DNA of 36,322 nucleotides from a virus: positions 1 through 36,322 of IMG/VR virus record IMGVR_UViG_3300006790_000052; one strand, 5' to 3'. The notes below the pieces were generated by a model. The model was given only the letters and a program-made list of their open reading frames with translations. It was not told the DNA's origin and did not search any database. Both the position numbers and the translations under genes were made by a program. Each line of letters starts with the position of its first letter. The stretch's first letter is position 1. Of the stretch, positions 28,078 through 36,322 are shown one piece after another.

Positions 28078-28512
28078 CTATGGGGTGCTCGTAGTCGCTG
28101 TCAGTGCCTCGCGGAACGAAGGCAGTGGCGATGAGGGCCGCAGCCGCGATAGCCAGTAGCGATACTGTGATCGCTCCAGCCGTACGAAGGGTGCGTCGGG
28201 CGAGTCGAGAATACATATCGAATACTCCTGTAAATCTTTGCGATAAATCACTACGATGAAGGGCACGCCCAGCGCGTGGGCTACCCGTCTGAGCCGCACA
28301 CCGGAAAACTGATTCCAGAGCCGTTGCCGGACAGAATTCTCCAGCCGATCATCAATCGCGTCGGTGGATTGGGTTAGCTCCAGCACGGCTACTGGGTCGT
28401 CGAGGAACCATTCGATCTGATCCACGTCATGCACGCCACCATGATCCCAGGTGTAGCGCCAGGCGCGATAGTCAGCCGTCTTGTCTACCCAGCCGTATTT
28501 GCGGGCTTTCAT
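28078..28512 (-). CDS. Possible PD-(D/E)xK-fold protein
   Basis: AGGAGG precedes ATG 28512 by 6 nt. The 144-residue product contains HDVDQIEWFLDDPVAVLELT, where D, E and a strand-ExT end are arranged like a PD-(D/E)xK nuclease core (Thr where Lys is usual), then a helix and VPFIVVIYRKDLQEYSICIL. This resembles a small family of proteins with the VAVLELT segment that I recall in some bacteria and phages. A nuclease, or a nuclease-derived binding protein that has lost the catalytic Lys, are the likely options. Active-site function is inferred only. Confidence 0.6.
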   Translation of the reverse strand: MKARKYGWVDKTADYRAWRYTWDHGGVHDVDQIEWFLDDPVAVLELTQSTDAIDDRLENSVRQRLWNQFSGVRLRRVAHALGVPFIVVIYRKDLQEYSICILDSPDAPFVRLERSQYRYWLSRLRPSSPLPSFREALTATTSTP

Positions 28513-29210
28513 AGCGGACCTCCTATAGCAGTCGGGTCTGTTGTGACAGAAGTTCTCTGGCGGTCTGCTCCAGTTGCGGGCTGTGCCAGCCCCACCAGCG
28601 GCTGACTTTTCGGTCGTACATCAATCCGGCTCGACCCAGCGCCTTGTAGACGGCTGGGTGCATCTGCTGCGGTTCGGGGCCGTCGATCTCGTAGCGGAAC
28701 GTCGCTGCGGCTCGGTAGCGTCGGCGGCGTTCCTTCTCGTCCAGCGCCTCTTTCAGCCACCTCGTCTCTTCTACGATCACGGCCATCAGCGCCTTCACAT
28801 CCGCGCTGTCCGAAGTCGAGCCATTCTCCAGCAAATGCTTCAGCGACTCGCACGCCCACTTCACCGTCGCATTGCTGACTGTCGGGTCCGGTGGCAAGTC
28901 GCCCGCTTGGGTCCACAGCGCAACGAATGCGTCCTCCACTGCTGAGTTCGCCTTCGCGTTGACGAGTGCGGCTAAATCGTTTTCTCGCATTAGCAATCAT
29001 TTCCTGTTGGGCCGGTCCGGTGATATGGATGCCGTCTATAGGTGTATAAAGCGGCACCTTGCGGACGCGGTTGCGTAATAGTTCGGGGTTATGGTAGGCC
29101 CAAGAGTAGCCGTAGCGCAGATCGCGCAACCAGCTACTCTTGGACCAAGAGTCCATCTCCAGCGCGTTGATCGCGGCCTCGACTTCAGCCCAAGTGCCGC
29201 AGTTAGCCAA
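28509..29210 (-). CDS. Helical N-terminal frame, likely shortened or joined by a +1 shift to the next gene
   Basis: The first ~75 residues (MANCGTWAEVEAAINALEMD to QQEMIANARKRF, 29210 to about 28986) look genuine and start at a TTG overlapping the upstream stop (TTGGCTAA). After that the frame runs on to 28509 with an Arg/Gly/Pro/Asp-rich sequence typical of an overlapping shadow, while the other frame (28523-28990) is protein-like. A single +1 shift around the AAAA run near 28986 would fuse the two into one ~230-residue protein. Alternatively two genes overlap. Only the N-terminal part is supported. Confidence 0.42.
   Translation of the reverse strand: MANCGTWAEVEAAINALEMDSWSKSSWLRDLRYGYSWAYHNPELLRNRVRKVPLYTPIDGIHITGPAQQEMIANARKRFSRTRQREGELSSGGRIRCAVDPSGRLATGPDSQQCDGEVGVRVAEAFAGEWLDFGQRGCEGADGRDRRRDEVAERGAGREGTPPTLPSRSDVPLRDRRPRTAADAPSRLQGAGSSRIDVRPKSQPLVGLAQPATGADRQRTSVTTDPTAIGGPL
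28523..28990 (-). CDS. Uncharacterised helical protein (155 residues)
   Basis: Starts at ATG 28990 with an AGGA-type site about 11 nt upstream; an in-frame TTG lies at 28996. The protein is helical and acidic-to-neutral (VEDAFVALWTQAGDLPPDPT; VKALMAVIVEETRWLKEALD), with a Trp-rich segment near the end (KVSRWWGWHSPQLEQTAREL). Composition is protein-like throughout, which makes this frame, and not the overlapping one (28509-29210), the true reading for this stretch. No family was recognised. Confidence 0.68.
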   Translation of the reverse strand: MRENDLAALVNAKANSAVEDAFVALWTQAGDLPPDPTVSNATVKWACESLKHLLENGSTSDSADVKALMAVIVEETRWLKEALDEKERRRRYRAAATFRYEIDGPEPQQMHPAVYKALGRAGLMYDRKVSRWWGWHSPQLEQTARELLSQQTRLL

Positions 29211-30362: not shown

Positions 30363-30827
30363 CTAAAACGGCAGGTCTTGAGGATCAGCCGACAGCAGCC
30401 GCAGGTCGATGCCATGACGCGCTCGGAATAGCTCACCGGCGATCTGTAGCACGACCTCCTGACCAGCGTCCTCACCGGCCTCGGCCAGAAACGAACGAGC
30501 CGAATAGAAGCAGCGCTTGTAATGCCGCACCGTCGCGTCAAACAGTTCATGCGCCTCTTCGGTAGAGCCAGGCTCCGGGCGATTGCGACTGACCAAGCGG
30601 GCGCGGTAGACGGGCTTTTCGTCCACCACGTTGACACCCAACTCAATCAGATCGCCTGGTTTCAGGCCATGGTGCTTTAGCTGATCTTGGAATGGGGTAT
30701 GGCGGTCTTGCATGAGGAAGACCTCCTCGCCCGCCTTGACGCGCCAGGGCCAGTTGGCCGCGCTGTCTACCAGCACTTTGACAGCGCAGCCCGGCTGCAA
30801 TCCAAACGGCTTCGGATCAGCGCTCAA
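30363..30827 (-). CDS. Putative SSB-like protein with C-terminal DLPF tip
   Basis: No standard SSB domain was recognised, yet the last residues are ADPQDLPF, very close to the acidic D-x-P-F tip used by bacterial SSBs to recruit repair proteins. The N-terminal half is strand-rich (CAVKVLVDSAANWPWRVKAG; GDLIELGVNVVDEKPVYRAR), as an OB-fold would be, and the second half is helical. Its ATG overlaps the previous stop (ATGA) and it directly precedes rusA. A divergent phage SSB or an SSB mimic is therefore plausible. The tip alone could arise by chance. Confidence 0.6.
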   Translation of the reverse strand: MSADPKPFGLQPGCAVKVLVDSAANWPWRVKAGEEVFLMQDRHTPFQDQLKHHGLKPGDLIELGVNVVDEKPVYRARLVSRNRPEPGSTEEAHELFDATVRHYKRCFYSARSFLAEAGEDAGQEVVLQIAGELFRARHGIDLRLLSADPQDLPF

Positions 30828-31765: not shown

Positions 31766-31767
31766 TC

Positions 31768-31806
31768 AAAAAAGCGGTGACCACTGGTCGATCCAGCAGC
31801 CACCGC
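31768..31806 (-). terminator. Intrinsic terminator after the XRE gene
   Basis: On the minus strand GCGGTG (31806-31801) pairs with CACCGC (31779-31774), with inner CTGG/CCAG pairs, followed by six Ts (31773-31768). It closes the lysogeny operon just before the next minus promoter; the T-run slightly precedes the CAATCAAA word. Confidence 0.82.
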
Positions 31807-31814
31807 CTAACCTT

Positions 31815-34056: not shown

Positions 34057-34093
34057 GGTATGCCTCCTGGCATGGGTGAAAGGTTATGCTGGT

Positions 34094-34122
34094 AATATAC
34101 CATGATGTGATATACTTGTCAA
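34094..34122 (-). promoter_or_regulatory. Strong leftward promoter of the lysogeny operon
   Basis: Reading leftward: TTGACA (34122-34117), a 17-nt spacer, TATATT (34099-34094). Five nt further, CATAACCTTTCAC (34088-34076) repeats the sequence found at the same offset below the rightward promoter. Iterons begin 12 bp from the -35. Confidence 0.78.
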
Positions 34123-34133
34123 GCGAAAGTTTA

Positions 34134-34239
34134 CAATCAAAACGAAATAATCAAAATGCCGCAATCAAATTGCTGCAATCAAATTGCCGAAGGGCCAGGG
34201 CAATCAAAACGGTGCAATCAAATTGACGCAATCAAAATG
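34134..34239 (+). repeat. Seven iterons, CAATCAAA-type, 14-bp periodicity
   Basis: Copies begin at 34134, 34148 (first base T), 34162, 34176, 34201, 34215 and 34229: steps of 14, 14, 14, 25, 14 and 14 bp. Ends vary between ACG, ATG and TTG; the TTG form CAATCAAATTG has inverted CAAT/ATTG arms. The array lies between two divergent promoters, so it is a likely origin or operator array. Confidence 0.9.
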
Positions 34240-34277
34240 GTGCTGGTATAGTAGCGTAGATGGCGAGCCAGGAGCTT

Positions 34278-34305
34278 GGGCGATAGGGCGGATTTGGGCG
34301 ATGGG
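34278..34305 (+). other. Potential G-quadruplex beside the iterons
   Basis: Four GGG runs (34278-34280, 34286-34288, 34296-34298, 34303-34305) are separated by loops of 5, 7 and 4 nt, satisfying the usual G3 with 1-7-nt loop rule on +. Related GGGCGAT words continue to about 34340, followed by an AT-rich stretch 34343-34374. Confidence 0.55.
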
Positions 34306-34375
34306 TTGGCAGCGTATCGGCAAGCGATGGGCGATGGGGCGCACTATATCATTATAGACTGCTGAAAATAAATGC

Positions 34376-34404
34376 TTGCATTGTGTATGTCATGGTGTTA
34401 TATT
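34376..34404 (+). promoter_or_regulatory. Rightward promoter of the accessory operon
   Basis: TTGCAT (34376-34381), a 17-nt spacer, TATATT (34399-34404). Five nt later begins CATAACCTTTCAC (34410-34422), identical to the box below the leftward promoter. The first gene starts about 32 nt downstream of the predicted start point. Confidence 0.72.
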
Positions 34405-34442
34405 GTGTTCATAACCTTTCACTAAACCCATGGGGGTCTATA

Positions 34443-36220: not shown

Positions 36221-36230
36221 GTGCGTCATT

Positions 36231-36322
36231 GGCAAGGTGGCAAGGTGGCAAGGTAGCGGAGAGCGGAGAGTAGGTAGCGGGTAGCAGGTAGCAGCAGTCA
36301 GACAGCGAGTAGTCAATGCGAA
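36231..36322. repeat. Short-repeat purine-rich right end
   Basis: GGCAAGGT repeats three times in a row (36231-36254), then AGCGGAG, GTAGCGG and GTAGCAG-type words follow to the end. No gene lies here. Purine-rich + here mirrors the pyrimidine-rich left end. Confidence 0.72.

Follow-up and report, generated by a model that had tools for sequence, protein, structure and literature searches.

As judged from sequence comparison, the array of AATCAAA words described here belongs to a multi-site element that a group of uncultured phages conserves and keeps attached to a promoter. It lies in a viral contig of 36,322 nucleotides, called the window below. We read the array in the first place, with a probability of about 0.45, as a cis-element that controls the leftward promoter of the integrase, XRE, SSB-like and RusA genes. 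Control of transcription is a little more probable than a role as origin, and the array may do both. The original prediction saw phased iterons between two divergent promoters in a genome without a recognisable initiator: the conserved iteron-like array by a strong promoter and the missing initiator are retained, while the 14-bp phasing and the rightward promoter are not.

The repeat array and its conservation

Seven AATCAAA words lie in a single orientation in the intergenic region at 34134-34236, starting at 34134 (CAATCAAA), 34148 (TAATCAAA), 34162, 34176, 34201, 34215 and 34229, i.e., at steps of 14, 14, 14, 25, 14 and 14 bp. The paired-word pattern CAATCAAA-N6-CAATCAAA with at most three mismatches has six matches, all in the array, against 0.20 expected, and none of 100 shuffled sequences reaches six. 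TRF recovers the array independently (period 14, score 63), so that the predicted seven copies with their single 25-bp break are real and far above chance. A degenerate eighth copy, CAAGCGAAA, stands 14 bp ahead of the first word. Three copies (34162, 34176 and 34215) read CAATCAAATTG and do possess the CAAT/ATTG arms of the imperfect palindromes first proposed, but the second arm is probably incidental, because relatives do not keep it. The window also shows the G-runs (34240-34345) and, leading up to and into the right promoter, the AT-rich stretch described; the TGGTATAGTAGCGT box at the start of the G-rich stretch is retained in the close relatives R2 and R4 and, with one change, in R8.

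The conserved genes left of the array all run leftward, down to about 26.3 kb, and comprise unknown proteins, a 67-aa protein, a tyrosine recombinase, XRE, SSB-like, RusA and double-HTH proteins and others. Those on the right all run rightward, with a small protein, GP88 and a methyltransferase followed by the terminase and structural genes. A DLPF tail, SSB-like by inference from its sequence, ends a 154-aa protein (30363-30827) and, in some relatives, also the early proteins f9, f17 and f66; no relatives were found for the 109-aa neighbour protein. Each of the overlapping frames 28509-29210 and 28523-28996 (minus strand) is conserved among relatives, at 34-45% identity, and the two possibly represent overlapping genes or a frameshift. 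The genome appears to be circular or circularly permuted with a length of about 36.6 kb, because the IMG/VR contig L003/R1, 100% identical to both window ends, joins the end to the start across about 295 bases. Near the contig end, non-coding DNA (36230-36294) carries the short tandem repeats TGGCAAGG, AGCGGAG and AGGTAGC. No tRNAs occur in the contigs scanned, and two terminase scans of GTDB genomes for a host gave relatives at only 40% and 51%.

Table 1. Elements of the control region and of the XRE locus in the window.
Feature	Position	Strand	Basis and remarks
Leader target TAACCUUUCACC in leftward mRNA	34075..34086	-	Complementary to RNA downstream of XRE
Leftward early promoter TTGACA-17-TATATT	34094..34122	-	Extended -10; 11 of 12; same type in most relatives
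Degenerate extra copy CAAGCGAAA, linking the array to the leftward -35 box	34120..34133	+	AATC here in relatives (TGTCAAGYGCAATC)
Seven AATCAAA words	34134..34239	+	Pattern counts, TRF; position conserved in relatives
Spacer, G-rich on the + strand, beginning with TGGTATAGTAGCGT	34240..34345	+	
Rightward promoter TTGCAT-17-TATATT	34376..34404	+	TTGACA-type at the same place in most relatives
Leader target TAACCUUUCAC in rightward mRNA	34412..34422	+	Complementarity test
Small XRE/HTH_3 protein, 76 aa	31815..32045	-	Best phage-coded candidate binder; in 19 related contigs
Seed of putative antisense RNA, overlapping the XRE stop codon	31808..31819	-	Complementarity test
Strong hairpin and U-run directly after the seed	31767..31807	-	

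Relatives were drawn from IMG/VR phage contigs by GP88 and terminase searches, and their terminases are 70-100% identical. For 21 of 23 related contigs the 200-bp stretch richest in AATC on this strand falls in the control region, with 7-20 AATC against 0-4 GATT, and for the other two (R3 and G015) the second-richest does so. Across the group each array has 6 to 20 copies of the word, almost all pointing one way. The word itself varies, from AATCAAAWTG (R2-R5, R7-R9) to AATCYAATCY (G017-G025), GTAATCGG (G015, G016) and AATCAAAGG plus AATCTAATC (G013, G014). The predicted conservation of word spacing does not hold: the AATC word, orientation and position are kept, whereas the steps measure 4-6, 10-16, 19, 21 or 33-39 bp. 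G013 and G017-G021 often have steps near 5, 10-11, 15-16 and 21 bp, and close kin of the window often have steps of 14-15 bp, which makes the 14-bp period a subgroup feature. Helical phasing at exactly 14 bp finds no support, given this variability. Word and spacing drift, but nearly all words keep one orientation, and the array stays attached to the leftward promoter.

Similar repeats occur elsewhere. Arrays of AATCAAAWNG lie inside open frames of unrelated phages (L072, L078, L118), as do, among the matches listed, many AATCY arrays of other phages; some of these frames of either kind resemble replication-protein genes. Such coding repeats may resemble the window word by chance or through a shared iteron preference, and we treat them as a separate phenomenon. 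Repeats of the AATCAAAAGG type with steps of 17-21 bp (L050, L079, L058, L100) stand just ahead of a conserved TATCAAAGAC, possibly a recombinase-gene junction.

Promoter attachment and the question of an origin

Canonical TTGACA/TATAAT-type promoters flank the control region in most relatives. Of the two strong divergent promoters proposed for the window, the leftward one stands and the rightward one was misplaced: a TTGACG-18-TATAGT match overlapping the array does exist at 34223-34252, but it is not conserved, and relatives place their rightward promoter at the equivalent of 34376-34404, which in the window serves the operon of the small protein, GP88 and the methyltransferase. In eight contigs (R2, R5, R7, R8, R9, G018, G019 and G020) the first AATC stands exactly 10 nt from the start of xGTCAA, and the junction GATT-4 nt-TTGAC (TGTCAAGYGCAATC) is found at 11 loci, namely in these eight and in R4, G021 and L265. 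The phages R6, G013 and G014 have two leftward genes to the right of the array and diverge about 3 kb further on; despite the moved divergence point the array stays beside the leftward promoter. We take this layout as the best evidence that the job of the array would be tied to that promoter.

Under transcription control a DNA-binding protein would load side by side on many short AATC sites, the first of which stands only a few bases ahead of the -35 box, and the early operon would be turned on or off according to the dose of the protein. We infer such binding, its cooperativity and its direction of effect, with XRE (or a host factor) as candidate binder. Repression may not need the array, which would argue against array control, because left and right promoters share phage-specific sequence between -35 and -10 in several phages (R3/R4/R8, G018/G021 and G019; e.g., GTATACACAGTATAC, ATACTCAGTAT). 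This shared sequence is probably a repressor site or immunity operator separate from the array. XRE as the reader of its palindrome was discarded when the helix match predicted between G019 and R3/R4 failed. Many same-direction copies are, moreover, also typical of replication origins, which counts against this reading.

Second in rank, and to be held tentatively, is the interpretation of the control region as the phage replication origin, in which the AATC array would form the iteron set and the AT-rich stretch before the right promoter the melting element. Host proteins or a promoter transcript would then start replication in place of an initiator from the phage, as is the case for the Ceduovirus (c2) phages of Lactococcus. 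No other long non-coding divergent region occurs, and AT-rich 30-bp blocks (0.6-0.9) lie ahead of the right promoter. PHROGs and Pfam scans of the early and main late genes found no initiator, helicase, primase or polymerase family, in agreement with the original prediction, although divergent or unscanned genes could hide one; several same-direction repeats are gathered at one place as in iteron origins, while the cognate initiator gene of such origins was not found in these scans. The cumulative GC skew, suggested as a check for an origin, has its minimum at or near the control region but provides no independent evidence, as it tracks the strand of the genes: the minimum shifts by 2.1 kb in G013, along with the displaced strand switch of that phage. 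DnaA boxes are absent near the arrays except in G023 and G024 and for a weak match in G015. A DnaA-driven origin was set aside for the window, which has no DnaA box at the array. A moderate AT-rich block does stand beside the right promoter of the window; G013, by contrast, has no AT-rich element after its array, where GC-rich terminator DNA follows.

In c2 phages the non-coding DNA that separates the divergent early and late genes allows a plasmid to replicate with no protein from the phage (PMC7150918), and we retain the origin as a possibility because this precedent shows that such a region can be an origin without a phage initiator. The window resembles c2 and bIL67 in its promoter-flanked non-coding region at the divergence of gene blocks, with no recognised initiator; such a region at the early/late divergence is found here, but not in R6, G013 and G014. 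It differs in the same-direction AATC array tied to one promoter, whereas the available text describes no repeat array for c2 (PMC7150918), and the origin in the phages studied here is a putative one.

Candidate binding proteins

Outside the subgroup of R6, G013 and G014, all contigs that cover the locus have the XRE gene (19/19), and no other DNA-binding gene of the left operon is so constant. These three phages lack the XRE family and possess instead a separate, rightward XRE-like gene, whose promoter region also contains AATCAAA words. The steps of about 5, 10-11, 15-16 and 21 bp seen in several phages suit a protein lattice. Against XRE, its recognition helices differ widely while AATC is constant: the window and G020 share the helix ITQPSLARIE and differ in their words, and the window and R5 share the word and differ in the helix. 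XRE is thus one candidate binder and a host factor another, because the helix changes without a matching change of the word.

Binding by a nucleoid-associated protein or regulator of the host rather than by a phage protein is nevertheless unlikely. The persistence of AATC across phages with differing early genes and XRE helices would speak for it, as would the lack of the XRE family in R6, G013 and G014, but among the matches listed the AATCY arrays of other phages lack the promoter-attached layout, and most of these phages hold the words inside open frames. The head-to-tail filaments of BldC (PMC5859096) offer a parallel in the protein of about 70 aa and the variable number of direct repeats at promoters; BldC is MerR-like, however, whereas the universal candidate here is XRE. 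BLAST finds no relative of the HTH_17 protein of the phage (26461-26685) in the related contigs.

It is very unlikely that the array serves a non-integrated prophage as a centromere-like or plasmid-stability site, where one small DNA-binding protein would occupy the array and repress the neighbouring operon as well, in the style of omega/parS of pSM19035 or StbA/stbDR of R388. Arrays of direct repeats overlapping promoters are the anatomy of pSM19035 parS, with 7-10 WATCACW heptads (PMC9499535), and both systems have 7-10 short non-palindromic repeats with an ATCA core (WATCACW against AATCAAA) that overlap promoters. The parS repeats are contiguous, however, with at least four 7-bp units in a row, whereas the words here are irregularly spaced, at steps of 14 and 25 bp in the window. 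Furthermore, an integrase is present, and PHROGs and Pfam family matches, with no dedicated search, include no ParA, ParM or TubZ NTPase and, in the early and main late genes, no RHH ParB with a ParA partner. Integrase arm sites are unlikely as well, as the integrase lies 1.1 kb away and has an Xer-like N-domain, and as G022, G023, G024 and G025 have the array and show no integrase of that family.

A putative antisense RNA downstream of the XRE gene

A strong hairpin follows the XRE gene in the relatives that have it, in most of them with a U-run directly after. The seed in the window is complementary to the leaders of both operons, TAACCTTTCACC on the left and TAACCTTTCAC on the right. Across the group cognate seed/leader pairs, which include near relatives and are therefore not all independent, average 9.75 against 5.86 for 570 non-cognate pairs (Mann-Whitney p ~8e-17; label permutation with nine group representatives, p ~5e-5; G025 was left out of the scoring). 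Two contigs outside the discovery set, L265 (close to G019) and L288 (close to G017), also fit the pairing. In R3, R4 and R8 only the right leader fits, the match in G016 is weak, and in R5, R7 and R9 the seed matches the left leader at its ribosome-binding stretch, possibly a pairing of another kind.

The seed sequence differs among phages, and because seeds and leaders co-vary between them, the pattern suggests an antisense RNA control of both divergent operons resembling that by P4 CI. An alternative is a DNA operator common to the three places, but RNA pairing is favoured by the antisense orientation and by the terminator next to the seed. The putative RNA matched no Rfam family. Its closest analogue is the CI RNA immunity of phage P4 (PMC4825925), where a short RNA of the phage is likewise complementary to leader sequences within its own early operon, as the putative RNA would be; here the seed differs in lying at the XRE stop codon before the terminator and in matching the leaders of two divergent operons. 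A circuit that would combine all these elements, i.e., a lattice of XRE or another factor on the AATC words beside the early promoter, which in some phages follow one another at about half a helical turn, a small RNA from the XRE 3' end acting on both leaders, and an origin without initiator, is rather unlikely as a whole.

The array of the window offers a testable control region, possibly also an origin, for widespread uncultured phages without known replication genes. It shows that a repeat array can change its word and spacing and yet keep its orientation and promoter attachment, and it exposes a probable antisense-RNA switch within the same circuit.
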